Shown: piece after piece, positions 467 through 22,800 of the stretch
Layout: every line of letters starts with the position of its first letter
How positions within the stretch are numbered: position 1 is the first letter of the stretch
Assembly (NCBI RefSeq): GCF_026262505.1
Contig: NC_067207.1
Span: 15,282,082 to 15,346,081 of the forward strand
DNA length: 64,000 bases
Direction of reading: 5' to 3'
Source of the DNA: Trichomonas vaginalis G3
Lineage: Eukaryota > Parabasalia > Trichomonadida > Trichomonadidae
Notes under the pieces: generated by a model
What the model was told of the DNA's origin: nothing
The model's database searches: none
The model's input: the letters and a program-made list of their open reading frames with translations, nothing else
Position numbers and translations under genes: made by a program

Positions 467-530
467 ATGGGCTATGCCCCGCCGCTTCGGTCTGAAAGAC
501 CTTCAGGACTCAAAGAGTCCGTTTGAGTCT
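467..530. repeat. GC-rich multi-hairpin insert, intergenic copy
   Basis: A string of small hairpins: GGTCT-GAA-AGACC, GGACTC-AAA-GAGTCC and a GGGC/GCCC pair. Read on the minus strand it closely matches the insert inside the fibre gene of element B (13945-14007). It sits between the integrase end and the GGTGA repeat, and differs from its A+T-rich surroundings in base composition. Confidence 0.8.
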
Positions 531-1690: not shown

Positions 1691-1709
1691 TTATGTAAAG
1701 TTAAAGATT

Positions 1710-4700
1710 TCATTGAACTCGGCACCATGCGAATACAGTCACAAATGGTGGCATATAATCTTCACCCGAGCCTGTTGGATTTGTTGTGAAAGTGTGTGAA
1801 TGATTTCCTCCTGGTTCAGTTGGTCGAAAAATCTTTTTTGCTGCATTGTTATAAGATGGAGATAAAACGTCATTGCCAGCTTCATATTCTGAGTTGTATA
1901 ATGGTGGTCTCTTAATGAGTGGCTATGGTCGCCAGAAAAGTTTGTAGTTCCTGTATGAGTGTGCGGTGGAAGGTTTGCTTCTTTAATTTTCTTCGAACCA
2001 CCTGTTTGCTTTGAAGAGTTCGCACAATAGAGGAATTTATCTACAATCTGTTCCCACGTACCAAAACCTAAAACACTTGCCGGATTTGTTGAATTCATTG
2101 ACGTATAAATAGAGCCTATAGGATATATGGTTTCAAGAATCTGAGTCTTCATTGTTAGAAGTTCATGTTTAACGTTTATAGTTTTATTGCCTTCTACAAT
2201 ATTTATATTGTTTGTTATTAAACCATTAGGAAAAGTAGGAGGATAAATTCTTTGTTCTTGTACAGTTGCACCGTCTCTTCCTGTTTTTGTTACTATTTCG
2301 GTGCATGCCTTAATTTCTTTAATCTTGATTGTTTGAAATTCTTCATGCACGTGCTCTTTATCGGCTTTTCCATTAAGCGCAGCATTTACTTCCGACTTCT
2401 TTGCATAATTTTCATCTACATAAGTTTTGTCGGCTTTCTTATCATATAAATCTTGAGCAGTGAATTTAACGTTATTTTCATCATCCATGACATAAACATT
2501 TCTACATCTAATGTCTTTCTTCGTTGTTATGTTTTCATTCGATGTTAAACCTTGTGGAAAGTTAGGAGGTTTACAATATAATGCATCCCCATCAGTTCCT
2601 TCAACCGTTCCTTCAATACTTTCTATACCAACAGTAGTGAAGGATTCATGTGTATGGTTTTTGTCTGCTTTGTTGTCTAAAGAAGTTTGAAGTTCATTTA
2701 TATCGGAGATATTGTGTTTATGAGATTTCAAAACTTTGTTCATTGCTTCGAGTTCATCTTTGTCAGCTTTACTTTTAATAGCATCTTCAAACGTTATTTT
2801 TGCCTTAACTCTCAAAGTAAATCTTGGTTCAACTAATACACCTTTAACAGAGAAAGTAGAGGCATAAATTTCATCGTTATAACCAAATGTTTGTGGTGCT
2901 TTACCCGTGTCATACTGTACAGTACAGCTTATGTCATAACCTTTAGCACGAATGAATTTATATCTTCTTTCATTGGGGTCTTCCGTCTTCACTTCATCAC
3001 TTCGTGTTAAATATCCATGGTAGTCCGTTATAATCTGTTCGTCTGAAGTTATATAATGAACGTGGTTCTTGACTTTATCACTCAGAGCTAAAAGCTCATT
3101 TTTGTCTGCTTTTTCGGCTAATTTCTCATTAACATCATTCACTTCTAATTCAACTCTTCCGCCAGAACTCTTATTATCATTAATCTTTTTCATTAATTCG
3201 GTAATTACGTCATAAAGACTATATTCTGTTTTCGGTTTTGTAAATAATGAGTCAAAATTTCTTTTCATCATTACATCGCTGACATTAATGATATCACCAA
3301 TTCCTTTTTCATTTATTCTCTTCATTAATTCTGCAATAATGACGAATATATAATCTGTTAATTTATTCTCTTCATCGAGGGTTATAGAATGTTTTGAAAT
3401 TGAATCATTAACTCCTCTAAATAAATCAATAACTTCAGGATACACGTTTTTAATGTCTCGAATAACCCGACCAGTATCCTCTGGTTTCTTCTCTTCTTCG
3501 TTCCCGTCGTTACGTGGTTTTATATCTCTAACCATCATCAACGCAGCCATAACCGGAGGGTTTGTTGCTACCTGTTCGAAAATCTGACCGTTATGTATGG
3601 TATATCTAAATAATTTCTTTGTGTTTGTTAAAACATTTGAAACAAGTCTTTTAAAACCATCTACAAAATTTCCTGTTTCACCTAATGTTCTTGCAGCATT
3701 TACAAGCTCACCCATTCCCGCTTTTGACCCCAAAAACGTCCATATTGCATTTATTTCACTCTGTATAGTTGTCCATTCAGCAAAATTAATACCCGCATTC
3801 GCTAAGCTGAAAATGAAATTCAGTGGATCGAACTTAATTCCACCTTCTTTTTCAATTTCAACGAACTCACTAACATGAGATTTTAAGTATTCTTTCGTTA
3901 AAATTGTTTTCCCCGATGTTATGTCATTAACGAAACTATCACCGTCAAAAGTTAACGAATTCGATTTCGTCGTTGATGCTTTTATTTCATACACCGCTTT
4001 ATCAATAGTTTTTGGCTCACCTTCTTTAGAAGCATATGAAACATTAATGAATGAATTATATGTATTCGTGAATGAGTTAAAATCAATGATTTTCATTAAT
4101 GACGCCTTTAATGATTCATTTACTGTCGAATCCCTTAAAGTAATTAATGAACTGTCATTTATGAAAGGTACACTACAAACCGTCGAGTTTGGATCAAATG
4201 CTGTAGTTGGTGCAGGAATATTAATGATATAAGTCATTAAATCATTAAGTGACGTAAATAATGTTGTCGTTTTTGATTTAATTTCTTTAGCATCTGTTAT
4301 ATATGGTAATTTTATTTCTGTAGTTTCTGAATTAAAGATATTCGCTAAAATGTTTTGTAAACTGTTTTGAACAGCTGTGTAAACCGTTGAATCCGGAACT
4401 CTTACGATTTCACCGTCCTTAATAAAAGGCATTGCACATGGTGTAGTGCTTGGGTCAAATCTTTCGGGATTATAATTCAACATATATTCTAACGCTTCAT
4501 GAACAGACTTATATACTGTTGTGTCGTTCTTCATGACAACTTCACCATTTACAATGAATGGCATAGTACATGGAGTTAAAATGGGGTCAAACTTTTCATA
4601 GTCCTTCCATGTTATGTATTTCTCGGTATTTCCATCAGAAATAACAATATATTTGTCAGTAAGTGTGAGAGAGTATTGACCAAAATATAAACGTTTAGCT

Positions 4701-4735: not shown

Positions 4736-4752
4736 ATTTTAATGAGAATAAA
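4736..4752. promoter_or_regulatory. Divergent start region fibre/penton-like
   Basis: Only 17 bases separate the two start codons. Towards the fibre gene the strand reads TCATTAAAATATG, matching the trichomonad initiator TCAYTW just before ATG; towards the penton-like gene it reads TTTTAATGAGAATAAAATG. The same sequence separates the same genes in element B (13350-13366). Confidence 0.6.
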
Positions 4753-5529
4753 ATGTTGTTCTATTTGCAAAGTACAGACCCAAACGAATACGGGACAGTA
4801 AAGCTACAAACAAACTTAGGTCTACAGAATGAGCCACTTGCATTCAGAATGGTTGACTTCAATACTATCGCTTCATTCGTTATAACAGATGAAACAGATT
4901 TCATGGAGCTTGAAATAGATGGAAAGAAGCACGAAATAAGATTTCACAATAATGTAGAATATAAGATGGAAACATTAGCTGGAGTGTTAAATGCTCTCAT
5001 AAATACTACAATAAACAAGGATAACGAAGAAAACTTAATGAATGTTAAACTTATTGCAGGAGTTTTGAAGTTCAGTTATGCGAAGGAGTTTAAGATACCA
5101 AGAATGAGTCATAGAGTACAACTTCTTTTGGGTGCATACCATATGACATTTCCTTTGAAAAGTGTTGACAAAACGATTGAGATGAAATCTGTTCCATACG
5201 TATGTTATGGTAATTGTTTGTACATTGAGTCAAAAATAGCTAATGTCACAGGTATTTCAGGAGTTAATAGTAAAGGTTCAGTAGAATATAAGTCTTTCTG
5301 TTATGCAGTCAATTCAATGTTCATTCCAAACGTTCCTGTCATAGCAACTCATTTAGGTAAATGGGTTCGCATTAGTCCTCATAATTTGAAAGACATGCAA
5401 TTTAGACTAGTTGACTTTCAAGGCGAGCCTGTAGAACTGAAGGCACCAGTGCGAATGACTGTTGAAGTTGACTTTTTAGAAAATATTAAATGCAACAGCT
5501 TACAAGAGAACTCAGAGCTAAAAATATAA
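4753..5529 (+). CDS. Putative penton/minor capsid protein, element A
   Basis: A 258-residue protein, intact. I chose the ATG at 4753 because an upstream in-frame ATG at 4720 lies inside the divergent fibre gene. The C-terminal part ends in L-K-D-M-Q-F-R-L-V-D-F-Q-G-E-P-V-E-L, then a beta-rich tail; this f-x-L-x-D-x-x-g-x-P-v-x-L pattern ends many Polinton/adenovirus-type penton or minor capsid proteins and recurs in element C (52352-53133). This suggests a pentameric vertex protein. Its end overlaps the start of the next gene by 40 bp. Assignment is by pattern and context; the level of identity to characterised pentons cannot be measured here. Confidence 0.6.
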   Translation: MLFYLQSTDPNEYGTVKLQTNLGLQNEPLAFRMVDFNTIASFVITDETDFMELEIDGKKHEIRFHNNVEYKMETLAGVLNALINTTINKDNEENLMNVKLIAGVLKFSYAKEFKIPRMSHRVQLLLGAYHMTFPLKSVDKTIEMKSVPYVCYGNCLYIESKIANVTGISGVNSKGSVEYKSFCYAVNSMFIPNVPVIATHLGKWVRISPHNLKDMQFRLVDFQGEPVELKAPVRMTVEVDFLENIKCNSLQENSELKI

Positions 5530-5729
5530 AGTATGAATGTTATGTATTAGATCATGAACTTTGGTTGTTGCTGTTTGATGAAACAAATGAGTTAGTTATG
5601 TCAGTCAAGAGAACAGAAAAATATTGTGTTAGTGAAAACTGCACCAAGTCAATAAGATTAGGTTTGCATTATGAAGATGAGTTCGATACTGTTGAAGAAG
5701 TTTTGGATAGATACTATAAGTTGCTTTAA
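5490..5729 (+). CDS. Small conserved Maverick protein (79 aa), element A
   Basis: Unrecognised 79-residue protein beginning MQQLTRELR. It overlaps the end of the penton-like gene by 40 bp and converges on the next gene with a 4 bp overlap. The homologue in element B (12343-12612) is the same protein plus a 10-residue hairpin insert between the K of R-T-E-K and Y-C-V-S-E; this copy is the empty site. Conserved acidic C-terminal half; no catalytic motif seen. Confidence 0.7.
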   Translation: MQQLTRELRAKNIKYECYVLDHELWLLLFDETNELVMSVKRTEKYCVSENCTKSIRLGLHYEDEFDTVEEVLDRYYKLL

Positions 5730-6376
5730 TTTACTAAAACATATTTCAAACAAAGCTTATATTCTGTTGAAAGTTTTGTATACTCGTTCGAATATTTATA
5801 CTTAAACTCAACTCCTGTAGTTCCTGGTATTTCAATGATGCGGATGTTACCTATTTTCATGAATATTGGAGTTTGACCACAGCATTCGATTTCAGGGTCG
5901 AGATAGTCAATGACACATTGCTTTCCTGTTATTCGTGAGATAACATTTTCAAGGTCCTCCTTTGTTAGAATTATTTGGTTCTTACTTATAAGATTTATCA
6001 AAAGCTTCTTATCGTCTTTGAGTAAAATTGTTTGGTATAACTGAAGAAGGTAATGGTCTACGTTATCTGAAGGATTTGTTTGAACATTTGTGTAAGGGTT
6101 GTCGTTGACTTCTCTTGAAAGAATTTGGTCCAGTGGTGGATACTCTAACTTAACATCTGATGTAGCGTTAGCGTTTGAAGCTGTGTTTAAATTTACGGCG
6201 CCATGCGCCATGATGGGCTCTTTGAGCCCTCCGGATTTCAGTTCTGGTTCTTTTTCTTTCAAACACTCTGAACTATAGTTCTTTATGACAATATTGTTTG
6301 TCGTTCGTGAGTCAACATTTGATGTTGGTTCAATTGGAACATTAACGGCACCAGCTAAGATGGATTTGCTTCTCAT
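5726..6376 (-). CDS. Conserved Maverick protein with Cys-Cys-Gly motif (216 aa), element A
   Basis: An intact 216-residue protein of unknown function. The N-terminal ~90 residues are polar and low in structure; the C-terminal half has L-L-Q-L-Y, helical segments, then E-I-E-C-C-G and a beta-rich end. Element C has a shorter relative (53138-53718) keeping D-I-S-C-C-G, so the C-terminal half is the conserved domain. It contains a 12-codon hairpin insert (6197-6232) missing from element B's copy. Starts divergently from 6402 with a 25 bp gap. Confidence 0.65.
   Translation of the reverse strand: MRSKSILAGAVNVPIEPTSNVDSRTTNNIVIKNYSSECLKEKEPELKSGGLKEPIMAHGAVNLNTASNANATSDVKLEYPPLDQILSREVNDNPYTNVQTNPSDNVDHYLLQLYQTILLKDDKKLLINLISKNQIILTKEDLENVISRITGKQCVIDYLDPEIECCGQTPIFMKIGNIRIIEIPGTTGVEFKYKYSNEYTKLSTEYKLCLKYVLVN
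6197..6232. repeat. In-frame 36 bp double-hairpin insert
   Basis: On the minus strand it contains GGGCTC-AAA-GAGCCC and GGCGC-ATG-GCGCC. Element B at the equivalent place (about 11880) reads directly from GAAATCC to GTGAATTTAAA, so this copy is filled and B is empty. It adds 12 codons and keeps the frame. Confidence 0.85.
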
Positions 6377-6401
6377 TTCATATAGAATAAAAACCTTTTA
6401 T
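6377..6401. promoter_or_regulatory. Divergent start region
   Basis: The 25 bp between the start codons at 6376 and 6402 carry ATAGAATAAAAACC and flanking TCATTT, an initiator-like match about 28 bases upstream of the plus-strand gene. Conserved in element B (11707-11731). Confidence 0.5.
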
Positions 6402-6803
6402 ATGTATGAAATGAACAATATACTCGACAAGGGTTTGAATGTAAAGCTAACGAATGAAAATATTGTTGAATTCACTGAGACAGGTGCTGTGTATAAAGAT
6501 GTAGAACTACTGAACAAAAGAGCAAAGGGAAGAAGCAGGAACATGAACAAAGGGTGGAAGCCTATAAAAATTTATGTCAATGATGGCTCAGGAGGTTCAA
6601 ACATAAAGTATGCAGAAAGTTATAGAGTTTATGCTCTCAAAGGTGAAAAGCCTTCATTTAAGAACAGCTATTCTAACGCATATCCTCAAAAGCTAACGGA
6701 TGGGGAAGTGGATGATATGAATGACAGCAAAAATATTAACAGAAATGGCGACAGAGATGCATGGAATTTGTTTACCATCAGTCAATTAAAGCATAAGATT
6801 TAA
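6402..6803 (+). CDS. Conserved Maverick protein (133 aa), element A
   Basis: The frame is open further upstream, but the first ATG after the divergent promoter is at 6402 (MYEMNNIL). The product is unrecognised: polar, with a K-G-W-K-P-I-K-I-Y-V-N-D segment and a Gly/Ser-rich stretch. It overlaps the convergent ATPase end by 4 bp, as in element B. Its position next to the ATPase and the CCG-motif protein suggests a virion or packaging role, which is inference only. Confidence 0.6.
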   Translation: MYEMNNILDKGLNVKLTNENIVEFTETGAVYKDVELLNKRAKGRSRNMNKGWKPIKIYVNDGSGGSNIKYAESYRVYALKGEKPSFKNSYSNAYPQKLTDGEVDDMNDSKNINRNGDRDAWNLFTISQLKHKI

Positions 6804-7687
6804 AACAATGTTGGTCGTTCCCATGGAATATTTTTGACTTTAATGGTATTAGTCATGATATGAATCTCAAGGTATGAACGAGGAGAGATGAGAGACTTAT
6901 ATGCTTCCCAAATTTCTTCAAAAGGTAATGTTATACCTGACTGTTTCCAAATGAGTTCAATATCATAACGTGAGAAACCTTGAAAGATAACGAAGTCAGT
7001 TATGAGACGTTTTATGTTTAAAGCAAGGAAACGCCATGTTTGCATAAGTATTGCTACAGTTAAATGGTAATGTCTGACTTTAGTAATGATGTTAGCTAAT
7101 GGTGAGTCAGGCTTTGACACTAAACCTTTTCCGGCGAAGTCGTCACAAACGAGCAGAGTGTTTGAAGGATACTTTTTGAAGGGGTATTTTGAAAGTTTTG
7201 ATAGAATGTAGTTTGTAAGTCGTTTCATATCGTAAACTCCTGAGTATTGACGTAAGTGGTGTTTGTCAATAATTCTTTCCATCTCTTCTGAAGTCTTTTG
7301 CATTCCTGACTGTATGAACTCTACAATAGCATAATATTTTCTCTTACGTCGAATGTAACGTTGAAGAAATTCAATGAGTTCGCTATCTGGAACTTTAACG
7401 ACGGAGGCTTGAACTTTTGACATGAATGTTTTCGCTGTTGAATCCATAGAGTCTGAAGTTGCTGATATAATGATTTGGTCATAGTAAGAGTCGTTTCCTA
7501 AACGCTCTGTTATGAGTATATGACGAATGAGGTTAAATGTCTTACCTGAACCCATCTTTCCACAATAGAAATACACACCATTTGAACAGAACTCATAATC
7601 TTTGCTGAAAGGAAGAATGAGAGAAGAGTTAAGTTTGTCTGTAGTTTCATTCATGTCTTCATCTACGTCATGTATTAAATGCTTCAT
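6800..7687 (-). CDS. FtsK/HerA-type genome-packaging ATPase, element A
   Basis: An intact 295-residue protein. It has a Walker A loop G-K-M-G-S-G-K-T-F-N near residue 45 and a Walker B strand L-L-V-C-D-D-F near residue 185, followed by a segment L-A-N-I-I-T-K-V-R-H and a predicted sensor T-V-A-I-L-M-Q-T-W. This is the pattern of the A32-like packaging ATPases of Polintons, virophages and large DNA viruses, which pump DNA into capsids. Length fits the family. Starts 16 bp from the divergent minor-capsid-like gene. Confidence 0.9.
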   Translation of the reverse strand: MKHLIHDVDEDMNETTDKLNSSLILPFSKDYEFCSNGVYFYCGKMGSGKTFNLIRHILITERLGNDSYYDQIIISATSDSMDSTAKTFMSKVQASVVKVPDSELIEFLQRYIRRKRKYYAIVEFIQSGMQKTSEEMERIIDKHHLRQYSGVYDMKRLTNYILSKLSKYPFKKYPSNTLLVCDDFAGKGLVSKPDSPLANIITKVRHYHLTVAILMQTWRFLALNIKRLITDFVIFQGFSRYDIELIWKQSGITLPFEEIWEAYKSLISPRSYLEIHIMTNTIKVKNIPWERPTLF

Positions 7688-7703
7688 TTTATCTCCATTA
7701 AAA
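7688..7703. promoter_or_regulatory. Divergent start region ATPase/minor capsid-like
   Basis: The 16 bp between start codons read TTATCTCCATTAAAA on the plus strand and TTTTAATGGAGATAAAATG towards the ATPase. This matches the start motif seen at 4736, 10404 and 13350. Confidence 0.55.
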
Positions 7704-8089
7704 ATGCAAGTCAGAAATATTCAGAACATAGCACCGAGTCTAACTGACAAGAGTATAAAGATATACTATGAACACGTTATGATGAAACCAACCAAAATTC
7801 AAGAAAGTCAGTATACTTATGAATATCCAAGACACTGGGTAGAGTATGTAGGAGGTGAGAAAGCTATTGAAATAAGACAAGTTAGAAGTATTCCAGCAGG
7901 AAGGACAATATTATTGAAGAACTTTAATGTTTTGAGATATAATGATGAAACAAAGAAGCAAGATAGTTTCCCTGTTGCTGTGTATGTGAACTTAGATACA
8001 GGAGATGACATGAAAGTTTTTAACACAAAGCTTCAAATGGTAGTGAGAGAACAACTGACTGCGGAAGGGCATCCATTACCTTCAGAAGT
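7704..8089 (+). pseudogene. Minor-capsid-like protein, element A, 5' fragment (cut by element B)
   Basis: The first 128 codons, from ATG 7704 (MQVRNIQNI), are intact, then the frame runs into element B at 8090. The remainder continues at 30981. The segment Y-P-R-H-W-V-E-Y ... K-A-I-E-I-R aligns with Y-P-L-R-W-L ... K-A-I-G-F-R in the 305-residue protein of element C, so this is one conserved family. The probable role is a minor capsid or vertex protein, based on family conservation and its place next to the packaging ATPase. Confidence 0.8.
8085..8089. repeat. Target-site duplication of element B, left copy
   Basis: GAAGT immediately before the element; the right copy is AAAGT at 30981-30985 with one substitution. 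The intact gene at 9521-10403 has a single GAAGT at this place. Confidence 0.8.
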
Positions 8090-9295: not shown

Positions 9296-9520
9296 TTACA
9301 CCATATTAAAATCATCTCTCTTCAATATTATCTCATAAAAGTTCTCGTTACTGGAGAAAGTCAATGAAACATAAACATTCTCACGGGCTTCGCCCTCACC
9401 GCTTTGCGGTCTATCTAACTTCTTTCTTATCTCATCTATTCGCTTCAAAATGTCTGAACAATTGCTAACATCTTCTACAACAGTTATTTCATCATGACTG
9501 ACCTTCAAGAACAAGCTCAT
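9296..9520 (-). CDS. Small conserved protein (74 aa) with hairpin insert, element B
   Basis: Unrecognised 74-residue protein starting MSLFLKVSHDEITVVEDV. It abuts the pVI-like start with no gap and sits directly after the minor-capsid-like gene. Residues coded by 9384-9410 (P-Q-S-G-E-G-E-A) derive from a double-hairpin insert. Element A has a decayed copy at 31477-31692. Confidence 0.6.
   Translation of the reverse strand: MSLFLKVSHDEITVVEDVSNCSDILKRIDEIRKKLDRPQSGEGEARENVYVSLTFSSNENFYEIILKRDDFNMV
9384..9410. repeat. In-frame 27 bp double-hairpin insert
   Basis: GGGC-TTC-GCCC followed by CCGC-TTT-GCGG inside the 74-residue gene. Element A has a mutated version of the same insert near 31590, so insertion here predates the A/B split. 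Confidence 0.8.
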
Positions 9521-10403
9521 TTAATATGCAATTAAAATCATCTCAATAATGAGTCCATCCTTTCCATCTTTAGGTAGCACAACATCTTTCATTGAAGAAG
9601 GTTCGACAAGTCTTATGTTAAACTTACTGACAAAGTTTGTTATACTATAATGCTTCGGTGGCGAATACATGTAGTTTGAAAGACATAATATAGATTCTTC
9701 AGCAAATTCACTTATACTGGATTTTATAACAATGTTCTCACGAGACCAAAATACCACCAATTGACAATCTTGTAAGCAATCCTGCTGAACCTTCTACTGT
9801 AAACATCGATGGTAACATTCCACGAAGGTCATCTATTGACATCGTTGAGTCACTGAATTTAAATATTTTCTTAAAGCAATCGTCATTATCTAACCATGCA
9901 ATAGCTTTGAAGTTTTCATTCGAATATACATCTGCTTCATTAAATGTAAAACCTGACTTCTTTGCAGAGATGACTTTAAAATCTATTGAGTTTGTTTCAA
10001 AATTATATGCTATGGTAACTTCTGAAGGTAATGGATGCCCTTCCGCAGTAAGTTGTTCTCTCACTACCGTTTGAAGCTTTGTGTTAAAAACTTTCATGTC
10101 ATCTCCTGTGTCTAGGTTCACATACACAGCAATGGGAAAACTATCTTGCTTCTTTGTTTCATCATTATACCTCAAAACATTAAAGTTCTTCAATAATATT
10201 GTCCTTCCTGCTGGAATACTTCGAACCTGTCTGATTTCAATAGCTTTCTCACCTCCTACATACTCTACCCAGTGTCTTGGATATTCATAAGTATACTGAC
10301 TTTCTTGAATTTTGGTTGGTTTCATCATAACGTGTTCATAGTATATCTTTATACTCTTGTCAGTTAGACTCGGTGCTATGTTCTGAATATTTCTGACTTG
10401 CAT
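9521..10403 (-). pseudogene. Minor-capsid-like protein, element B (one frameshift)
   Basis: The homologue of the split gene in element A. The start at 10403 (MQVRNIQNI) faces the ATPase start across 16 bp. The frame is open to about 9755, where one extra T (TATTTTGG versus CATTTGG in A) shifts it; the conserved ending V-L-P-K-D-G-K-D-G-L-I-I-E-M-I-L-I continues in the next frame to 9521. The segment I-V-I-K-S-S-I-S-E-F ... L-C-L-S-N aligns with I-I-V-H-A-S-F-S-G-A ... L-C-L-A-N in element C's 305-residue protein. Probably a virion vertex or minor capsid component. Confidence 0.75.
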
Positions 10404-10419
10404 TTTTAATGGAGATAAA
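10404..10419. promoter_or_regulatory. Divergent start region minor capsid-like/ATPase
   Basis: Same 16 bp start region as at 7688-7703, in mirror orientation: TTTTAATGGAGATAAAATG leads into the ATPase. Confidence 0.55.
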
Positions 10420-11306
10420 ATGAAGCATTTAATACATGACGTAGATGAAGACATGAATGAAACTACAGACAAACTTAACTCTTCTCTCATTCTTCCTTTC
10501 AGCAAAGATTATGAATTCTGTTCAAATGGTGTGTATTTCTATTGTGGAAAGATGGGTTCAGGTAAGACATTTAACCTCATTCGTCATATACTCATAACAG
10601 AGCGTTTAGGTCAAGATCCATATTATGACCAAATCATTATATCAGCAACTTCAGACTCTATGGACTCAACAGCGAAAACATTTATGTCAAAAGTTCAAGC
10701 ATCTGTCGTTAAAGTTCCAGATAGCGAACTCATTGAATTTCTTCAACGTTACGTTCGACGTAAGAGGAAATATTATGCCATCGTTGAATTTATACAGTCA
10801 GGAATGCAAAAGACTTCAGAAGAGATGGAAAGAATTATTGACAAACACCACTTACGTCAATACTCAGGAGTTTACGATATGAAACGACTTACAAACTACA
10901 TTCTGTCAAAACTTTCAAAATACCCCTTCAAAAAGTATCCTTCAAATACTCTGCTCGTTTGCGACGACTTCGCCGGAAAAGGTTTAGTGTCAAAGCCTGA
11001 CTCACCATTAGCTAACATCATTACTAAAGTCAGACATTACCACTTAACTGTAGCAATACTTATGCAAACATGGCGTTTTCTTGCTTTAAACATAAAACGT
11101 CTCATAACTGACTTCGTTATCTTTCAGGTTTCTCACGTTATGATATTGAACTCATTTGGAAACAGTCAGGTATAACATTACCTTTTGAAGAAATTTGGGA
11201 AGCATATAAGTCTCTCATCTCTCCTCGTTCATACCTTGAGATTCATATCATGACTAATACCATTAAAGTCAAAAATATTCCATGGGAACGACCAACATTG
11301 TTTTAA
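10420..11306 (+). pseudogene. FtsK/HerA-type packaging ATPase, element B (one frameshift)
   Basis: Nearly identical to the intact ATPase at 6800-7687, with Walker A G-K-M-G-S-G-K-T and Walker B V-C-D-D-F. One A is missing near 11128 (TTTCAGGTTTC versus TTTCAAGGTTTC), so translation leaves the conserved frame after D-F-V-I-F-Q and stops at 11175; the original frame ends at 11306. The Walker motifs are upstream of the break, but the C-terminal ~60 residues are lost. Confidence 0.85.
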
Positions 11307-11706
11307 AGTTTAACCTTCAATTGACTGATGGTAAACAAATTCCATGCATCTCTGTCGCCATTTCTGTTAATATTTTGCTGTCATTCATATCATCCACTTC
11401 TCCATCCGTTAGCTTTTGAGGATATGCGTGTAGAATAGCTGTTCTTAAATGAAGGCTTTTCACCTTTGAGAGCATAAACTCTATAACTTTCTGCATACTT
11501 TATGTTTGAACCTCCTGAGCCATCATTGACATAAATTTTTATAGGCTTCCACCCTTTGTTTCATGTTCCTGCTTCTTCCCTTAGCTCTTTTGTTCAGTAG
11601 TTCTACATCTTTATACACAGCACCTGTCTCAGTGAATTCAAACAATATTTTCATTCGTTAGCTTTACATTCAAACCCTTGTCGAGTATATTGTTCATTTC
11701 ATACAT
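11303..11706 (-). pseudogene. Conserved Maverick protein, element B (frameshifted copy of 6402-6803 gene)
   Basis: Homologue of the 133-residue protein of element A. The start region to about 11640 is in frame; a stop and several single-base changes then break it, including an altered stretch around 11560 and 11430. Same overlap with the ATPase end as in element A. Function unknown. Confidence 0.65.
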
Positions 11707-11731
11707 ATAAAAGGTTTTTATTCTATATGAA
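11707..11731. promoter_or_regulatory. Divergent start region
   Basis: Mirror copy of 6377-6401: GGTTTTTATTCTATATGAAATG leads into the plus-strand gene. Confidence 0.5.
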
Positions 11732-12346
11732 ATGAGAAGCAAATCCATCTTAGCTGGTGCCGTTAATGTTCCAATTGAACCAACATCAAATGTTGACTCA
11801 CGAACGACAAACAATATTGTCATAAAGAACTATAGTTCAGAGTGTTTGAAGAAAAAGAACCAGAAACTGAAATCCGTGAATTTAAACTCAGCTTCAAACG
11901 CTAACGCTACATCAGATGTTAAGTTAGAGTATCCACCACTGGACCAAGTTCTTTCAAGAGAAGCCAACGACAACCCTTACACAAATGTTCAAACAAATCC
12001 TTCAGATAACGTAGACCATTACCTTCTTCAGTTATACCAAAACAATTTTACTCAAAGACGATAAGAAGCTTTTGACAAATCTTATAAGCAAGAACCAAAT
12101 AATTCTAACAAAGGAGGACCTTGAAAATGTTATATCACGAATAACAGGGAAAAATGTGTCATTGACTATCTCGACCCTGAAATCGAATGCTGTGGTCAAA
12201 CGCCACCATTCATGAAAATAGGTAACATCCGCATCATTGAAACACCAGGAACTACAGGAGTTGAGTTTAAGTATAAATATTCGAACGAGTATACAAAACT
12301 TTCAACAGAATATAAGCTTTGTTTGAAATATGTTTTAGTAAATTAA
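11732..12346 (+). pseudogene. CCG-motif conserved protein, element B (frameshifted, empty insert site)
   Basis: Homologue of the 216-residue gene at 5726-6376. It lacks the 36 bp hairpin insert. An extra A near 12042 (CCAAAACAATT versus CCAAACAATT) ends the frame at 12064, and further small changes around 12150 follow. The conserved C-C-G region is still readable near 12190. Ends overlapping the convergent small gene by 4 bp, as in A. Confidence 0.75.
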
Positions 12347-12612
12347 AGCAATTTGTAATATCTATCCAAAACTTCTTCAACAGTATCGAACTCATCTTCA
12401 TAATGCAAACCTAATCTTATTGACTTGGTGCAGTTTTCACTAACACAATATAGCGCTTTGCGCTCGGCGCCTTTGACGCCTTTTTCTGTTCTCTTGACTG
12501 ACATAACTAACTCATTTGTTTCATCAAACAGCAATAACCAAAGTTCATGACCTAATACATAACATTCATACTTTATATTTTTAGCTCTGAGTTCTCTTGT
12601 AAGCTGTTGCAT
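12343..12612 (-). CDS. Small conserved Maverick protein with hairpin insert (89 aa), element B
   Basis: Same protein as 5490-5729 plus ten residues (G-V-K-G-A-E-R-K-A-L) coded by a 30 bp GC-rich hairpin insert at 12451-12480. The frame is kept and the rest is nearly unchanged. This gene overlaps the penton-like gene by 40 bp. Function unknown. Confidence 0.7.
   Translation of the reverse strand: MQQLTRELRAKNIKYECYVLGHELWLLLFDETNELVMSVKRTEKGVKGAERKALYCVSENCTKSIRLGLHYEDEFDTVEEVLDRYYKLL
12451..12480. repeat. In-frame 30 bp double-hairpin insert
   Basis: On the coding strand GGCGTC-AAA-GGCGCC (one G-T pair) and AGCGC-AAA-GCGCT. The homologous site in element A (about 5619) reads straight from GAAAAA to TATTGTG. 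Confidence 0.9.
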
Positions 12613-13349
12613 TTAATATTTTCTAAAAAGTCAACTTCAACAGTCATTCGCACTGGTGCCTTCAGTTCTACAGGCTCTCCTTGAAAGTCAACAAGTCTGA
12701 ATTGCATGTCTTTCAAATTATGAGGACTAATGCGAACCCATTTACCTAAATGAGTTACTATGACAGGAACGTTTGGAATGAACATTGAATTGACTGCATA
12801 ACAGAAGGATTTATATTCTACTGAACCTTTACTATTAACTCCTGAAATACCTGTGACATTAGCTATTTTTGACTCAACGTATAAACAATTACCATAACAT
12901 ACGTATGGAACAGATTTCATCTCAATCGTTTTGTCAACACTTTTCAAAGGACATGTCATATGGTATGCTCCCAGAAGCAATTGAACTCTATGACTCATTC
13001 GTGTTATCTTAAACTCCTTCGCATAACTGAACTTCAAAACTCCTGCAATAAGTTTAACATTCATTAAGTTTTCTTCGTTCTCCTTGTTTATTGTAGTATT
13101 TATGAGCGCATTTAACACTCCAGCTAATGTTTCCATCTTATATTCTACATTATTGTGAAATCTTATTTCGTGCTTCTTTCCATCTATTTCAAGCTCCATG
13201 AAATCTGTTTCATCTGTTATAACGAATGAAGCGATAGTATTGAAGTCAACAACTCTGAAAGCAAGCGCTTCATTCTGAAGACCTAAGTTTGTTTGTAGCT
13301 TTACTGTCCCGTATTCGTTTGGGTCTGTACTTTGCAAATAGAACAACAT
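12573..13349 (-). CDS. Putative penton/minor capsid protein, element B
   Basis: An intact 258-residue copy of the protein at 4753-5529, with only scattered substitutions (for example I-T-R-M for I-P-R-M). I chose the ATG at 13349 to avoid overlapping the divergent fibre gene; a longer frame opens at 13382. It has the same L-V-D-F-Q-G-E-P-V-E-L ending. Probable vertex protein. Confidence 0.6.
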   Translation of the reverse strand: MLFYLQSTDPNEYGTVKLQTNLGLQNEALAFRVVDFNTIASFVITDETDFMELEIDGKKHEIRFHNNVEYKMETLAGVLNALINTTINKENEENLMNVKLIAGVLKFSYAKEFKITRMSHRVQLLLGAYHMTCPLKSVDKTIEMKSVPYVCYGNCLYVESKIANVTGISGVNSKGSVEYKSFCYAVNSMFIPNVPVIVTHLGKWVRISPHNLKDMQFRLVDFQGEPVELKAPVRMTVEVDFLENIKCNSLQENSELKI

Positions 13350-13944
13350 TTTATTCTCATTAAAATATGAGTATTGCTGCATATGCGTATGAAGCTGACA
13401 GAGCTAAACGTTTATATTTTGGTCAATACTCTCTCACACTTACTGACAAATATATTGTTATTTCTGATGGAAATACCGAGAAATACATAACATGGAAGGA
13501 CTATGAAAAGTTTGACCCTATTTTAACTCCATGCACTATGCCATTCATTGTAAATGGTGAAGTTGTCATGAAGAACGACACAACAGTTTATAAGTCTGTA
13601 TATGAAGCGTTAGAATATATGTTGAATTATAATCCCGAAAGATTTGACCCAAGCACTACGTCATGTACAATGCCTTTTATTAAGGATGGTGAAATCGTAA
13701 GAGTTCCGAATTCAACGGTTTACACAGCTGTTCAAAACAGTTTACAAAACATTTTAGCGAATATCTTTAATTCAGAAACTACAGAAATAAAATTACCATA
13801 TATAACAGATGCTAAAGAAATTAAATCAAAAACGACAACATTATTTACGTCACTTAATGATTTAATGACTTATATCATTAATATTCCTGCACCAACTACA
13901 GCATTTGATCCAAACTCGACGGTTTGCAGTGTACCTTTCATAAA

Positions 13945-14007
13945 GTCGCAAACGGACTCTTTGAGTCCTGAAGGTCTTTCAGACCGAAGCGACCAGGGCG
14001 AAGCCCA
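13945..14007. repeat. In-frame 63 bp multi-hairpin insert in fibre gene
   Basis: GGACTC-TTT-GAGTCC and GGTCT-TTC-AGACC lie inside an outer GTCGC/GCGAC pair, followed by GGGC-GAA-GCCC. It interrupts AAA/TG in the fibre gene; element A's copy has the uninterrupted ATAAATGACAG. It is 21 codons and leaves the frame open. Reverse-complement relative at 467-530. Confidence 0.9.
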
Positions 14008-14681
14008 TGACAGTTCATTAATTGTTTTAAGGGATTCAACAGTTAATGAATCATTAAAGGCGTCATTAATGAAAATCATTGATTTTAATTCATTCACGAA
14101 TACATATAATTCATTCATTAATGTTTCATATGCTTCTAAAGAAGGTGAGCCAAAAACTATCGATAAAGCGGTGTATGAAATAAAAGCATCAACGACGAAA
14201 TTGAATTCGTTAACTTTTGACGGTGATAGTTTCGTTAATGACATAACATCGGGGAAAACAATTTTAACGAAAGAATATTTAAAATCTCATGTTAGTGAGT
14301 TCGTTGAAATTGAAAAAGAAGGTGGAATTAAGTTCGATCCACTGAATTTCATTTTCAGCTTAGCGAATGCGGGTGTTAGTTTCGCTGAATGGACAACTAT
14401 ACAGAGTGAAATAAATGCAATATGGACGTTTTTGGGGTCAAAAGCGGGAATGGGTGAGCTTGTAAATGCTGCAAGAACATTAGGTGAAACAGGAAATTTT
14501 GTAGATGGTTTTAAAAGACTTGTTTCAAATGTTTTAACAAACACAAAGAAATTATTTAGATATACCATACATAACGGACGGATTTTCGAACAGGTAGCAA
14601 CAAACCCTCCGGTTATGGCTGCGTTGATGATGGTTAGATATAAAACCACGTAACGACGGGAACGAAGAACATGAACAACAG

Positions 14682-14712
14682 AGCCCAACGGGCTCAGAGC
14701 CACATAGTGGCG
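14682..14712. repeat. Double-hairpin insert in fibre gene
   Basis: AGCCC-AAC-GGGCT followed by GCCAC-ATA-GTGGC. Element A has a short Glu/Lys-coding stretch at the same place (about 3480) without these hairpins. Confidence 0.75.
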
Positions 14713-16893
14713 AGGATACTGGTCGGGTTATTCAAGACATTAAAAACGTGTATCCTGAAGTTATTGATTTATTTAGAGGAGTTAATGATTCAATTTCAAA
14801 ACATTCTATAACCCTCGATGAAGAGAATAAATTAACAGATTATATATTCGTCATTATTGCAGAATTAATGAAGAGAATAAATGAAAAAGGAATTGGTGAT
14901 ATCATTAATGTCAGCGATGTAATGATGAAAAGAAATTTTGACTCATTATTTACAAAACCGAAAACAGAATATAGTCTTTATGACGTAATTACCGAATTAA
15001 TGAAAAAGATTAATGATAATAAGAGTTCTGGCGGAAGAGTTGAATTAGAAGTGAATGATGTTAATGAGAAATTAGCCGAAAAAGCAGATAAAAACCACGT
15101 TCATTATATAACTTCAGACGAACAGATTATAACGGACTACCATGGATATTTAACACGAAGTGATGAAGCGAAGACAAAAAATGTTAATGAAAGAAGATAT
15201 AAATACATTCGTGCTAAAGGTTATGACATAAGCTGTACTGTACAGTATGACACAGGTAAAGCACCAGAAGCATTTAGTTATAACGATGAAATTTATGCCT
15301 CTACTTTCTCTGTTAATGGTGTATTAGTTGAACCAAGATTTATGTTAAGAGTTAAGGCAAAAATAACGTTTGAAGATGCTATTAAAAGTAAAGCTGACAA
15401 AGTTGAACTTGACGCAACGAACAAAGTTTTGAAATCTCATAAACACAACATCTCCGATATAAATGAACTTCAAACTTCTTTAGACAGTAAAGCTGACAAG
15501 AACCATACACATAAATCCTTCACTACTGTTAGAGCAGACGACATAATATTGAACTTTGACCTTGGTTCAAGTGCACCATTAGAAAAATCCAAGTACAAGC
15601 GTAAAAGATACTCTTAACAGTTTAGATAACAGTTGCAGGAACATTGAAAGTCATGCCAGAAACTTTGAAGCACATGAACTACCAGCAATGTTAGATAAGA
15701 AAGCAGACAAGAACCATACACATAAATCCTTCACAACTGTTGCTATAGAAAGTATTGAAGGAACGGTTGAAGAAACTGGTGGGGATGCATTATATTGTAA
15801 ACCTCCTAACTTTCCACAAGGTTTAACATCGGATGACGACATAACGACGATGAGAAACATTAGATGTAAAGATGTTTATGTCATGAAGGATGAACATAAT
15901 ATTAAATTCACTGCTCAAGATTTATATGACAAGAAAGCAGACAAGAACCATACACATAAATCCTTCACTACTGTTAGAGCAGACGACATAATATTGAACT
16001 TTGACCTTGGTTCAAGTGCACCTTTAGAGAATCCGAGTACAAGCGTAAAAGATACTCTTAACAATTTAGATAAGAGTTGCAGGAATACCGAAGATCATGC
16101 CAGAAACTTTGAAGCATATGAACTACCAGCAATGTTAGACAAGAAAGCAGATAAAACTTATGTGGATGCAGAACTAACAAAGAAATTTTCGAAACCAGAT
16201 ACAATGACATTTACAACAGAAATTATAAATGGTGAACCAGCAACTCCATTTGAATTTGTTAGAGGTCTTCAACCAGATACTTTTGAATTTTTCTTGGATA
16301 ATTCTATTGAACTAACATTACATTATAAAAGTGGAACAAATGCAACATTTCATCCGGGAGATACATTCCAAATGGTATTTAATGACATAAGTTCTTTAGA
16401 ATATGTTTATAGAGTTATGAGCATATATGATTTAATATATCCTATAGGAGCTGTTTATACGTCTATGAATCCAATAAATCCAAACACTTTATTTGGTGGT
16501 AGATGGTATGAAATAGTTGACAGTTTTCCATTCTACACTAATACGCAGTCAATGAAGATGGGAGGTTCAAAGAAAATAGGTATTGAAAACCTTCCTTCAC
16601 ATATGCATAGGTTCAGTGGAAGAACATCTGTGGAAGGAAACCATTCACATTCAATAACAAAAAGAGGTTATACAAATCTTGCAGCGGGTTCGGATAGACA
16701 GGGAATGCATAGATATGATATCACAACTGACCCCAAAGATGTTAGCACAGGTATTTTCTGTGGAACTGCAGGAAATCATACACATGTTGTAGCTGGTATT
16801 ACAGACCCAGCAGGTAATGGAAAAGATTATATGCCTCCTTATATAACAATGCACGCTTGGATACGAGTTGGTTAAAATCTTTAACTTTACATA

Positions 16894-17979
16894 AATGAGC
16901 TTGAAAGAAGTATTCGAACAACATCCATGGAGGTCATTTAAGAAGTTCAATGAAGCTGCAAAGAGTTGGGATTTACTAACAGAGCTGAAGTGAAAAGGTT
17001 CTTTGACAAAAATGTTGTACATCAAACAAAAATAAATCCTTACGACTACTTTTTACCAATTTACTCCAACACTCCTGACGCATACCAATTTGACACTCTC
17101 ATTCAAAGCAGAAAAGGAGGACATAAACCATTCCTCATCTTCATAAATGTTAACACTCGTAAAGCATATGCGTATATAATGAGAAATAAAGGAACTCATG
17201 AAGTGTTAAGAGTTTTACAAAAGTTTGTAGCAGAACATAGCCCAAGTATTTTAACATCAGACCAAGACGGTGCATACCTCAGCAACGAAATCACAGAATT
17301 TCTCATTAAGCATAACATAACTCACTACACTACTGAAGACCATAACCATAACATACTCGGTATCATTAACCGCTTCATAAGGACTCTCAGAGATTTAAAT
17401 CAAGAGCGAGACTTTACCGAAGAAACAATGAAACATTTTCTCGAAGTATATAATTCCTCAACACATTCTACAACAGGACATACACCAAATTCAATGACAC
17501 AACAACAAGAAGAAAAGTATATACAAAAGAAACGAAGCCAAACACAAAATATCAGAAATTCAACACAATTTACTCTCATTCCTGGTACAAAAGTTCGTGT
17601 AGTTCTTGACGACAAACCATTGACAAAGAAACGTTTAAGGTTAAGTCGAAATTATTATATCGTAGACTCTACGCAAGGTAATGGATATCTTATAAAAGCT
17701 GCTGACGACTCCATAGCATTTTACCCTCGACATAAATTAGTCGAAAGTAGTAATGGCAAACTTGCTGAAACCATTGACGAAGCAAAGCGAGGAGTGGTTA
17801 TTGAAATACTTGACTATAACACAAACGATGACACTTATAAAGTAAGATATGAAGGAGGCGTTGAAGATGTTATACCATCTAAGAACTTGAGAGAATCTAA
17901 ACCAACTCATCTGGGACCATTAGAGCGGGAGTACTGGAAAGATAAAAACATGCCAGAAAGAATAAGAAAATTCTTCTAA
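16894..17979 (+). pseudogene. Maverick integrase (retroviral-type DDE), element B (one frameshift)
   Basis: ATG at 16894 lies 18 bp after the fibre stop. A one-base change near 16966 (AGAGTTGGGAT versus AGTTCGGGAT in A) shifts the frame; the rest is open from 16966 to 17979. A first Asp candidate lies in Y-Q-F-D-T-L, the second in T-S-D-Q-D-G-A-Y, and Asn stands in G-I-I-N-R-F, where integrases carry Glu 36 positions after the second Asp. A C-terminal chromo-like domain is present. It lies downstream of the fibre on the same strand, as in A. Confidence 0.88.
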
Positions 17980-18004
17980 ACTTTTTCGTTGGATGTAAAT
18001 CAGA

Positions 18005-18066
18005 CAAAAATATAATTTAGGTGAAGAGGTGAGATTTCACCTGTTTTCTCACCTCTTTTTTCACCT
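18005..18066. repeat. GGTGA palindromic repeat
   Basis: TTTAGGTGAAGAGGTGAGAT followed by TTCACC and repeated CTCACC steps, between the convergent integrase and 164-residue genes. Confidence 0.8.
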
Positions 18067-18633: not shown

Positions 18634-19599
18634 TCACAAGCGTTTTACATGAATTGTACGATGTATATTTGAAATCCTAAACAATTTCGTAGCTTCTATT
18701 TCTTCTGTCAGTATGTCAAAAGTTTTAACAATGCCGAAAGTTTCTTTATATTTCTTCTTGACGTCAGATAGAAGGAAATCGTCAGCAGTTGGATAGTTTT
18801 TGTTCAGAAATGCTAACATGTCCATTTTATTTTCTGCTGGCTTTTCTGCTTCTTTCTTTAAGTCTGCATAGTCGTTTCGCATTCTTTCTATCTCTTTGAC
18901 GGAGTAGTTATATTTCCTAATTGCTGCTTTACATTTAGAACATTGCGGATTCATTTTTGCGTTATATTCTGAAACCTTACCTGCTAAAACAACTAAGGCG
19001 TCAATGGTTTTCTTTAACTCAAAAGCAGTTGGTCTTATCTGTTCGTTCCATATTTTACCTCTTCTATCTTTATCTCTTATCTGCCATACACATTCAGCAA
19101 CTAACGAAACAAAGTTATCGTAGGTCTTAAACTCCCCGGATTTATATATGTCAGAAACATTCTTATATACCATGTCGCAATCTTTGTCCATAACCTTATG
19201 GTTGCAATGAAATCCTAGAAACTCATAGTTTACCTTTCGAATGAACTTCTTTATTTCTACTGAGTCAGTTGGTTTCACTTCTATTTCATCGAATTCAGGA
19301 ATAGTTAGTTTTTGATGCTGAATTTCAGGTAGTTTAGGTAAATGGTCAATAATGTCCTGCATTTCATAAAGATACTGTTCATTTGTTTCATCTTTCGCAC
19401 TACAGTCTAAATTACTTGTTAAAAGTTCTTGCTTTATCTTCTGGATTTTTGTTTCGAAAGTATATGAAGAAGGAATGAAGCTTTTCATCTCTACTAACAT
19501 AGATGTTGGATTCATGACTAACGAGTTTGGTGAAGTTGTTGTGGACAGAGTCCCGCCGTTCGCGGCTTGAATTGTTGTTGTGCCGATTGTTGAAATCAT
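18634..19599 (-). CDS. Gene X, conserved Maverick protein (321 aa), element B
   Basis: Complete copy of a protein found in all three elements (1-321 partial, 45168-46082 full). The N-terminus is Thr/Ser-rich, then a conserved P-S-S-Y-T-F-E-T block, E-I-Q-H-Q-K-L-T-I-P-E-F-D-E-I-E, a single C-S-K-C pair near residue 220, and a coiled-coil stretch (S-V-K-E-I-E-R-M-R-N-D-Y-A-D-L-K-K-E-A). The two-cysteine pair alone does not define a zinc finger. High conservation between otherwise divergent elements B and C implies recent exchange or strong selection. Function unknown. Confidence 0.8.
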   Translation of the reverse strand: MISTIGTTTIQAANGGTLSTTTSPNSLVMNPTSMLVEMKSFIPSSYTFETKIQKIKQELLTSNLDCSAKDETNEQYLYEMQDIIDHLPKLPEIQHQKLTIPEFDEIEVKPTDSVEIKKFIRKVNYEFLGFHCNHKVMDKDCDMVYKNVSDIYKSGEFKTYDNFVSLVAECVWQIRDKDRRGKIWNEQIRPTAFELKKTIDALVVLAGKVSEYNAKMNPQCSKCKAAIRKYNYSVKEIERMRNDYADLKKEAEKPAENKMDMLAFLNKNYPTADDFLLSDVKKKYKETFGIVKTFDILTEEIEATKLFRISNIHRTIHVKRL

Positions 19600-19669
19600 A
19601 TCTTTACATACAAAATAAAAAAATAAATAAAAATAAAACTAACGTTATTTTTCTATCTTAAGGAAATTC

Positions 19670-20042
19670 ATGAAAATTCATGAGGGTGAGAAATTAGGTG
19701 AAAAAAGAGGTGACATCTCACCTCTTCACCTATAATATATTTTTGGTCATTTACACTCATTTACGAAGAAGTTATGACAAAGCATTTACGAAGAAGTTAT
19801 GACAAAGCATTTACGAAGAAGTTATGACAAATTCATGAGGGTGAGAAATTAGGTGAGAAAACAGGTGAGATGTCACCTCTTCACCTATAATATATTTTTG
19901 GTCATTTACACTCATTTACGAAGAAGTTATGACAAAGCATTTACGAAGAAGTTATGACAAAGCATTTACGAAGAAGTTATGACAAAGTCACGAGGGTGAA
20001 AAAAGAGGTGACATCTCACCTCTTCACCTAAATTATATTTTA
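19670..20042. repeat. GGTGA units interleaved with 25 bp tandem repeats, element B
   Basis: Three GGTGA palindromic units alternate with two arrays of a 25 bp repeat starting ACGAAGAAGTTATGACAAAG. A close 25 bp relative forms long arrays in element C (59041-59510 and 59887-60290). The segment holds no gene. Confidence 0.9.
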
Positions 20043-20265
20043 GGTCAAAGCTTCCACGAGAGAAAAGATTCCTCATTCGCTAAGGATTCCAAAAATGAAA
20101 AAATCATTGATTTCGGCTGAGAAAAAACAGCAAAACCCTTCTTCCACGGGAACAAAGAAATAAAGAAGAAATAAAGTAAATTTTTTATTTATTCCCGTGG
20201 AAGATAGAGCACTTTTATGACACTTTTTATTCACGACAAACAAGACAAATAAAGAAAATAAGAAA
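20043..20265. other. A+T-rich stretch before tRNA-like sequence, inverted TTCCACGGGA-type motifs
   Basis: No convincing gene. It contains CTTCCACGGGAACAAAGAAA near 20140 and TTCCCGTGGAAG near 20192 in inverted orientation, and CTTCCACGAGAG near 20050, forming loose stem arms. Confidence 0.4.
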
Positions 20266-20865: not shown

Positions 20866-21657
20866 ATGTCAACATTAGAGAACACAACAACTGCTATCGT
20901 TCATGAAGCCATAAATGAAGAATACGAATACATACAATATAACAAACAATTGAGACTCATTCGTTCAGTCAAAGATGATATGTATCAAATGCAAAGTATA
21001 ATGAACGCTCTTCGTTCTACAAAGCAAGCATATCATTGGTTTGAAAACCAACAGGCAAAAGAACTTTTAGAAGAATTTCCTCATATGATTGCTTCCCTCG
21101 GAAAACCGAGGGAAGAGATTCCGTACGAAAATCGCAAGAATTTGGCACCTGGTTTGAAAGGTTATTATGTTCATAGACTTTTAGTAAATGCTGTAGCAAT
21201 GTGGGCTTCACCTCGTTATGCTTGTTATATTTTCATGATGTTAGATGAACTATATAAAGCAGAACGTGGAGAGATGGAAAAGAAACTTCAAGCAAAAGAT
21301 GAAGTCATTGAATCCAAAGACAAAAGCATACAGAAAAGAATACCACGTTCAGTACCAAAAGGAAAGGAAAAGAGTTATAAGTATATGATTTATACTGAAG
21401 AGTTGGAGAAAGAAGAAGATAGAGATATGGTTATGTTGCATTTAGTCAGAAGAAACAACAAAAGCTTTTACGACCTTGCTAAAATATATAAATCTGACAG
21501 AAACTGGTTCTATCGTGAAAACTTACCGATTTCAATGACACCGAATGAGCAAATAAAAGAAATTGTCAAAAATACTCTTCCTCAAACACACTATGACATC
21601 AAAGGTTGCACAATACTTACCTTCAAAGAAGACTTAACATTACTGAAGAAAAAATAA
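20866..21657 (+). CDS. KilA-N / DUF3627-type DNA-binding protein (263 aa), element B
   Basis: Residues ~95-125 (G-Y-Y-V-H-R-L-L-V-N-A-V-A-M-W-A-S-P-R-Y) match the end of KilA-N domains of phages and large DNA viruses. The C-terminal half (Y-K-Y-M-I-Y-T-E-E ... F-Y-D-L-A-K-I-Y-K-S-D-R-N-W) is the DUF3627-like segment often found behind KilA-N. The early KilA-N core is shortened and replaced by a stretch coded by a perfect hairpin (21092-21115). KilA-N proteins bind DNA; a regulatory role in the element is inferred. Element C holds a decayed homologue (48034-48829) and another KilA-N gene (44341-45006). Confidence 0.75.
   Translation: MSTLENTTTAIVHEAINEEYEYIQYNKQLRLIRSVKDDMYQMQSIMNALRSTKQAYHWFENQQAKELLEEFPHMIASLGKPREEIPYENRKNLAPGLKGYYVHRLLVNAVAMWASPRYACYIFMMLDELYKAERGEMEKKLQAKDEVIESKDKSIQKRIPRSVPKGKEKSYKYMIYTEELEKEEDRDMVMLHLVRRNNKSFYDLAKIYKSDRNWFYRENLPISMTPNEQIKEIVKNTLPQTHYDIKGCTILTFKEDLTLLKKK
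21092..21115. repeat. Perfect 10 bp hairpin inside KilA-N coding region
   Basis: CTTCCCTCGG-AAAA-CCGAGGGAAG. The corresponding place in the element C copy (about 48292) has a different, shorter hairpin TGGGG-AAAAAA-CCCCA. Confidence 0.8.
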
Positions 21658-21743: not shown

Positions 21744-21830
21744 TGAGGTGAAAAAAAGACCCAAAGGGTCAGAGCCGCAAAGCGGCTAGGTGATATCTCA
21801 CCTCTTCACCAAAAATATATTTTTGGTTAA
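21744..21830. repeat. GGTGA unit interrupted by a double-hairpin insert
   Basis: GACCC-AAA-GGGTC and AGCCGC-AAA-GCGGCT (21758-21788) lie between GAGGTGAAAAAAA and TAGGTGATATCTCACC. Other GGTGA units have these two parts joined directly. Confidence 0.85.
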
Positions 21831-22558: not shown

Positions 22559-22585
22559 GCCGCAACGCGGCGAGGACGAAGTCCA
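22559..22585. repeat. In-frame 27 bp double-hairpin insert
   Basis: GCCGC-AAC-GCGGC and GGAC-GAA-GTCC between AAA and TG in the polymerase N-terminal region. Confidence 0.85.
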
Positions 22586-22639: not shown

Positions 22640-22800
22640 AGTACCTCATGAAGTAAGAAGAGAGATGTTTGACATAACAAATGCAAACGTTGGTGAAACA
22701 AGAAGAGCTGTACCTCATGAAGTAAGAAGAGAGATGTTTGACATAACAAAGCCGCATGACGGCGCGGGCGTAGCCCATGCAAACGTTGGTGAAACACGAA
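22640..22800. repeat. Internal coding duplication, one copy with a hairpin insert (22751-22777)
   Basis: The block coding V-P-H-E-V-R-R-E-M-F-D-I-T occurs twice. The first copy continues directly as ACAAATGCAAACGTTGG; the second has a 27 bp insert, GCCGC-ATGA-CGGC then GGGC-GTA-GCCC, between ACAAA and TGCAAACGTTGG. The insert therefore has a filled and an empty version side by side. Confidence 0.9.

Follow-up and report, generated by a model that had tools for sequence, protein, structure and literature searches.

Short in-frame double-hairpin inserts in Maverick genes of Trichomonas vaginalis, a probable family of very small non-autonomous mobile palindromes

Introduction

The GC clusters of yeast mitochondrial genomes are short GC-rich palindromes that are polymorphic, in some cases lie in frame within a gene (VAR1) and merge into composites (PMC8811140; here and below, statements from the literature draw on parts of the papers cited). 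Their sequence is variable and changes fast (PMC8811140). Gene conversion or double-strand-break repair has been proposed for their spread. Rickettsia palindromic elements are dispersed palindromes that are found in frame in unrelated genes (PMC10969869). Haloarchaeal PATEs carry near-terminal palindromes and make no target duplication, and SMR-A repeats use palindromes of other elements as insertion sites (PMC3119063), much as a nested 36-bp element described below does. The mitochondria of fungi and sponges contain dispersed repeats of one or two hairpins that have no known function (PMC2800124). The inserts reported here, which lie in Mavericks of Trichomonas vaginalis and often within genes, resemble the yeast, Rickettsia, haloarchaeal and fungal and sponge elements in several of these respects.

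Mavericks make up about 73 Mb of the T. vaginalis genome, in about 5,000 copies (PMC7845603), and this abundance allows each insertion to be followed through tens to hundreds of copies, some filled and some empty. The spread of tiny palindromes within genomes and genes is an old question, which can here be tested directly in a nuclear genome. In the titles and abstract openings of the open-licence literature, preprints aside, we found no account of hairpin inserts in trichomonad Mavericks; PMC5799277, in the part considered, deals with other elements.

Results

Maverick copies and their double-hairpin inserts

The window analysed is a stretch of 64,000 nucleotides of T. vaginalis G3 (contig NC_067207.1, positions 15,282,082 to 15,346,081; GC 34%), part of a 181-Mb genome; the protein matches that bear a name, all but two, are to T. 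vaginalis G3. Maverick genes lie in bases 1-24000 of the window, with Pfam matches to Pox_A32-like ATPase, KilA-N, DUF3839 and phage-tail-like domains, and to an integrase core below the cut-off; one further gene has relatives that carry the name DNA polymerase type B. Two Maverick copies, A (~10018-18006) and B (~582-8089), lie side by side in inverted orientation and are 97%, 97% and 96% identical over three aligned segments, with A 15530-16823 left unaligned. A partial third copy lies at ~30265-32278. Elsewhere in the window, and separate from the Maverick genes, the open frame 55692-58907 (1071 aa) matches DUF4106 (E 1.2e-236). The open frame 61249-62619 resembles Mutator-like and ISL3 transposases weakly, and 59030-60289 consists of dense tandem repeats that have segments in common with 381-468 and 19664-20047.

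An earlier note on this DNA had named nine sites as short hairpin inserts, and all nine hold GC-rich paired hairpins (Table 1). We scanned the window for GC-rich hairpins that lie next to each other in pairs (stem of at least 4, loop of 3-4, gap up to 8). At a score of at least 24 the scan found seven pairs, all within 1-24000, and none in each of ten dinucleotide-Markov shuffles; at a score of at least 22 it found eight, with one each in two of the ten shuffles. The scan missed the inserts at 22751, whose first hairpin is imperfect, and 12451, which has a T.G pair; comparison of filled and empty copies confirms both. The decayed insert at 14645-14670 had been absent from the note's list. In 24 genome pieces sampled at round-number coordinates (76 kb in total, including 3.2 kb of N), one pair scored at least 23 and lies inside a Maverick fragment; nine of ten shuffles gave none and one gave one. 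The restriction of the inserts to Mavericks is based on these 76 kb of sampled sequence only. Lone GC-rich hairpins at 36336-36350 and 43941-43956, outside the Maverick part, may be relics or unrelated.

Table 1. Inserts, their parts and their empty counterparts in the window.
Feature	Position	Strand	Remarks
63-bp insert	13944..14006	+	in gene 13367-14653; copy B empty at 4158 (CATAAATGACAG)
Empty site of the 63-bp insert, copy B	4158..4159	-	A/B alignment
Outer first hairpin, left arm GTCGC and AAA loop	13945..13952	+	DNA fold
Outer first hairpin, right arm GCGAC	13989-13993	+	DNA fold
Nested 36-bp two-hairpin element	13953..13988	+	within the loop of the outer first hairpin
Second hairpin GGGC-GAA-GCCC, then ATG	13996..14006	+	fold and flank table
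Decayed 26-nt unit	14645..14670	+	3 of 9 pairs remain; L009 intact, P0017 and P0018 empty
30-bp insert, in frame	14682..14711	+	loops AAC and ATA; A/B alignment
26-nt unit, polymerase-type-B gene	22559..22584	+	27 bp including junction A
26-nt unit, tandem repeat of polymerase-type-B gene	22751..22776	+	27 bp including junction A
Empty counterpart of the 22751 site, preceding tandem repeat	22671..22689	+	GACATAACAAA^TGCAAACG
26-nt unit, in frame in a 74-codon open frame	9385..9410	-	copy L082
30-bp insert, in frame	12451..12480	-	copy B empty at 5621
36-bp insert, copy B	6199..6234	-	copy A empty near 11874
Non-coding composite	469..529	-	nested 33-nt core in diverged primary unit; target CATAAA...ATGACC
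Intergenic double hairpin	21758..21787	+	scan
Weak double hairpin	19543..19566	-	scan, score 23; inside DUF3839 frame

The alignment of A with B bears out the filled and empty pairs that had been proposed for these copies. It contains five indels of at least 9 bp (36, 30, 63, 30 and 33 bp). Each length is a multiple of three, and four of the indels (30, 30, 36 and 63 bp) are double hairpins, all in frame. The 33-bp indel at ~3068-3100 was rejected as a hairpin insert and is variation of a tail repeat. The lengths of 27, 30, 36 and 63 bp given at the outset are correct, except that 63 bp is a composite in which 36 bp are nested in 27. Likewise, the loops AAA, GAA, TTC and AAC are present, yet GTA, ATA, CAT/ATG and TTT occur too. 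The claim that the inserts keep the reading frame holds for the coding sites; the inserts at 467, where a stop is met in the frame used elsewhere, and 21758 lie outside clear genes. The 36-bp insert of copy B has CCG at each end, so its junction is ambiguous by 3 bp, and the insert at 14682 measures 30 bp against copy B and 11 residues (33 bp) against relatives such as P0010. A longer hairpin, with a 10-bp stem and an AAAA loop, lies in frame in the KilA-N gene at 21092-21115, and the related copy near 48288 has an extra 27-bp GC-rich inverted repeat close to it. These may represent another type of in-frame hairpin insertion.

Gain at empty sites and later spread

Annotated relatives of the interrupted genes were compared site by site. 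The 63-bp insert at 13945 is lacking in P0001-P0003 and P0005-P0007, three of which are only about half identical; the site at 22559 is empty in P0025, P0028 and P0033-P0038, diverged relatives among them; and at 14682 P0009 is filled and P0010 and P0012 are empty. No empty partner was found for the site at 9384. At the level of sequence, the empty sites in relatives at 13945, 22559 and 22751, diverged ones included, show that the inserts are gains and not losses.

Genome-wide, 82 filled and 292 empty copies were counted for 13945 (one junction each, with two mismatches allowed for filled and three for empty copies) and 26 filled and 1,275 empty copies for 22751 (three and two mismatches, respectively, the empty count including tandem repeats). 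Within one protein of the window, the repeat at 22751 is found both filled and empty. The unit at 22751 has 26 exact copies across the genome, the 20 that were fetched fall into 15 flank haplotypes, and its peptide recurs in P0036, a relative that is ~55-59% identical. The later spread of the inserts is through Maverick amplification, probably together with recombination among homologous copies.

These data also bear on an explanation by recombination only, in which old and rare inserts were copied between homologous Maverick sites by gene conversion or break repair and transposition played no part. The coexistence of hundreds of filled and empty homologous copies, the many flank haplotypes around one exact sequence and the peptide shared with P0036 all agree with it. 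Conversion, however, joins homologous sites, and leaves unexplained why identical cores lie in unrelated genes and why nesting occurred in the loops of different primary units (see below). We regard this explanation as possible and yet rather unlikely as a full account; recombination may have added to transposition, and the two readings overlap to this extent.

The primary unit and its target

The primary unit is 26 nt long and consists of a 5-bp stem with a 3-nt loop, two nucleotides (often GA), and a 4-bp stem with a 3-nt loop. We compiled its flanks in a table of 16 rows and 15 sites, L093 and L095 being one site. The target had been described as AAA^TG; restated as AA^ATG, it is found at 11 of the 15 sites, where AA and ATG flank the block. 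The exceptions are 9384 (TAG, GTG), L095b (GAA, CAT), L096 (AGA, ATG) and L125 (TGA, TAG). At gene sites with ATG or GTG the block measures 26 nt, or 62 nt where nested; it measures 61 at L095b and 467 and 63 at L125. Four further non-coding sites have blocks of 25, 25, 26 and 25 nt, and may not be independent of each other since they have a common left flank, AAAAATAA. In coding sequence the gain is 27 bp with one extra A, as the 22751 site shows directly: the tandem repeat that precedes it in the same protein is empty. There is no clear target duplication beyond one A for the primary unit, and none in the non-coding 25-nt form.

In the genome, 169 matches to the plain L095 unit were counted. 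The independent insertions are few, because most copies at the same site derive from Maverick amplification: among fetched loci that were mostly chosen by their match to the element, we count 15 clusters, two of which are forms of one site, and a few more. Apart from the nested element, the members of 30-36 bp, which have other stems, are linked to the family only by their architecture. Exact sequence patterns had no match in viral_contigs or, with one main-unit pattern, in genome_contigs; a search of viral_contigs for Maverick relatives, with one alignment and one protein as queries, found none. Several of the loci L011-L038 contain a minisatellite in which filled and empty repeat units alternate, the filled ones carrying GCCGCTAGCGGCAAGGGCGAAGCCC; of 2,325 genome matches, ~100 places are listed, and the GCAAGGG form accounts for most of these.

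A nested element and the case against local scars

In the 63-bp insert, the AAA loop of a 27-bp insert holds a 36-bp element of two hairpins. The same arrangement is illustrated by one gene position at which L095 has the plain unit and L093 the unit plus the 36-bp element. With up to three mismatches allowed, the 33-nt core of this nested element matches the genome 222 times, compared with none for the control, and is exact at all of the ~100 places among the matches listed. It occupies five sites (13945, 467, L093, a second site of L095, also seen in L130, and L125), at which the outer stems vary and the core is constant; in the fetched loci it always lies within a primary unit.

An alternative explanation is that the inserts are scars of local replication or repair, each formed in place through snap-back synthesis or template switching, with only the in-frame cases surviving. 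Template switching yields perfect inverted repeats naturally, the stems vary by site and the junctions are short, and the four double-hairpin indels compared at the DNA level are all multiples of three. Scars of this type would be expected to copy neighbouring sequence and not to have sequence in common, whereas one 33-nt core is found at five sites and the 26-nt architecture recurs with its linker at a preferred target. This largely refutes local scarring for the main and the nested elements, and it is improbable for the family as a whole; it could still apply to the inserts at 12451, 14682 and 6197.

Pairing between and within sites

In nine units from different places, a small set in which some may share descent, 80 of 81 pair cells are standard pairs and six of the nine pairs are altered on both sides; none of 500 shuffles scored as high, and controls with slid positions drop to 25-39%. 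The pattern GGHCGNAGDCCATG has 933 hits in the genome compared with three for the reversed control, and the matches listed (~100, from one chromosome) are all complementary and derive from few insertions. Within a site the picture is reversed: among four variants at the L015 site, those with indels having been dropped beforehand, all five changed pairs are broken and none is compensated. The contrast between covariation from site to site and breakage within a site suggests that pairing is important for the spread of the element and not once it has settled.

The single-stranded DNA is predicted to fold better than shuffled sequence in seven of eight windows tested (z from -2.35 to -4.68); the exception is 22751 (z -0.71), and at 467 the predicted fold departs from the model in the nested part. 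GNA loops such as GCGAAGC are stable in DNA.

A fold kept between sites, together with the intergenic cases, might be taken to mean that the hairpins are functional cis elements, RNA or DNA signals placed in Maverick genes by selection. However, the presence of the inserts varies by copy, the genes and the positions within them differ, pairing was lost within both sites that were checked, and Rfam matched no family in the window at the gathering score. We consider such a function very improbable.

Reading frame and peptide

Nine genic sites of the main family (13945, 14650, 22559, 22751, 9384, L015, L093/L095, L095b and L096) are all read in the sense orientation and in one frame; this count omits L125, where no sense frame is open over the whole fetched stretch, and does not take L094 as open. 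L094 is one of two copies seen at the L096 site and has a stop in the shared frame. The predicted peptide across the insert is K or another residue, about eight residues (about 20 where nested), and then H or R. Of the other two frames, one contains a stop and the third gives a stop if A follows.

The shared frame can largely be accounted for by the frame bias of the target itself. In 19 ORFs, A and B both counted, ATAAATG occurs 11 times, 10 of them in the sense orientation and all 10 as ATA-AAT-G, so that selection for one peptide, which we had considered as the cause, is largely not needed. For the shorter target AAATG, which is in the used frame in 39 of 107 occurrences on both strands of the 19 ORFs, the frame bias at eight sites would arise by chance with a probability of 3e-4. 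Given this residual bias, weak selection on the frame may have contributed.

The protein could also be unaltered if the ribosome skipped the insert, as has been described for genic GC clusters in Magnusiomyces mitochondria, which are bypassed in translation (PMC8811140). A bypassed insert would need neither an open frame nor a length that is a multiple of three, yet both are retained in the coding inserts, and the non-coding forms measure 25-26 nt. We give translational bypassing hardly any credence here.

Discussion

We consider it probable that the inserts are non-autonomous mobile palindromes of very small size, which form one family resident in the Mavericks of T. vaginalis. The family is gained at empty sites, has dispersed identical cores, prefers a target, nests, and keeps its pairing from site to site. 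Four observations favour a mobile element over local scars: the identical cores, the precision of the empty sites, the target preference and the covariation between sites. Of the two options that the earlier note had left side by side, the tiny mobile element is therefore better supported than independent local repair scars.

How such a unit might move can be outlined from these features. The unit would move as a folded single strand whose shape is recognised more than its sequence, with machinery supplied in trans, and Maverick replication may expose the single strands that it uses. Among PATEs and other derivatives of IS200/IS605 elements, a Y1 transposase mobilises the element via single-stranded hairpins. 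The loops of the hairpins may be nicked and in this way become targets for another element. An insert in a gene would, judging from the open frames, be translated into about nine residues, most of them hydrophilic (such as K-PRSGEGEA-H), and would afterwards decay or spread with Maverick amplification. A stronger version of this outline, which we think is rather less than even money, would place the 26-nt double hairpins among the smallest mobile DNAs, recognised by shape and not by sequence, copied via the single strands of Maverick replication and serving as targets in each other's loops. If true, these hairpins would parasitise virus-like transposons and introduce short in-frame peptides into viral proteins. 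The inserts would also give virus-like proteins a simple way to gain peptides in frame.

A comparison with described systems places the inserts near several of them. Classical MITEs have terminal inverted repeats related to a DDE transposon and a target duplication of at least 2 bp, whereas in the main unit both hairpins are internal and no more than one A is duplicated (for the insert at 6197 the comparison is affected by the ambiguous CCG). The likeness to Rickettsia palindromic elements to which the earlier note had pointed is one of behaviour and not of membership: here, too, palindromes lie in frame in unrelated genes, but the Rickettsia elements are bacterial, ~150 bp long and encode a conserved peptide (PMC10969869), and the inserts measure 26-63 bp and reside in a eukaryote, so that neither the length of ~150 bp nor a Rickettsia host is found. 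SMR-A repeats are ~110 bp long, archaeal, and tied to PATEs and IS605-type transposons (PMC3119063). The fungal and sponge elements are mitochondrial; most lie between genes, fewer in rRNA genes, and protein genes seldom contain them (PMC2800124). With the yeast GC clusters the inserts share that they are short GC-rich palindromes in AT-rich DNA and polymorphic among copies. Yeast GC clusters have AG/TAG terminal repeats, which are absent from the flank table, and they are mitochondrial, whereas the inserts are nuclear, lie mostly at AA^ATG and consist of a 26-nt two-hairpin unit. The contigs that carry the inserts are chromosome-sized, and Maverick integrase, KilA-N and A32 genes lie next to them, which speaks against a mitochondrial location. 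Size, terminal repeats or compartment separate the inserts from the systems that they resemble. On our best reading of these comparisons, they would come closest in behaviour to the yeast mitochondrial GC clusters and the Rickettsia palindromic elements, and would represent a separate and smaller kind.
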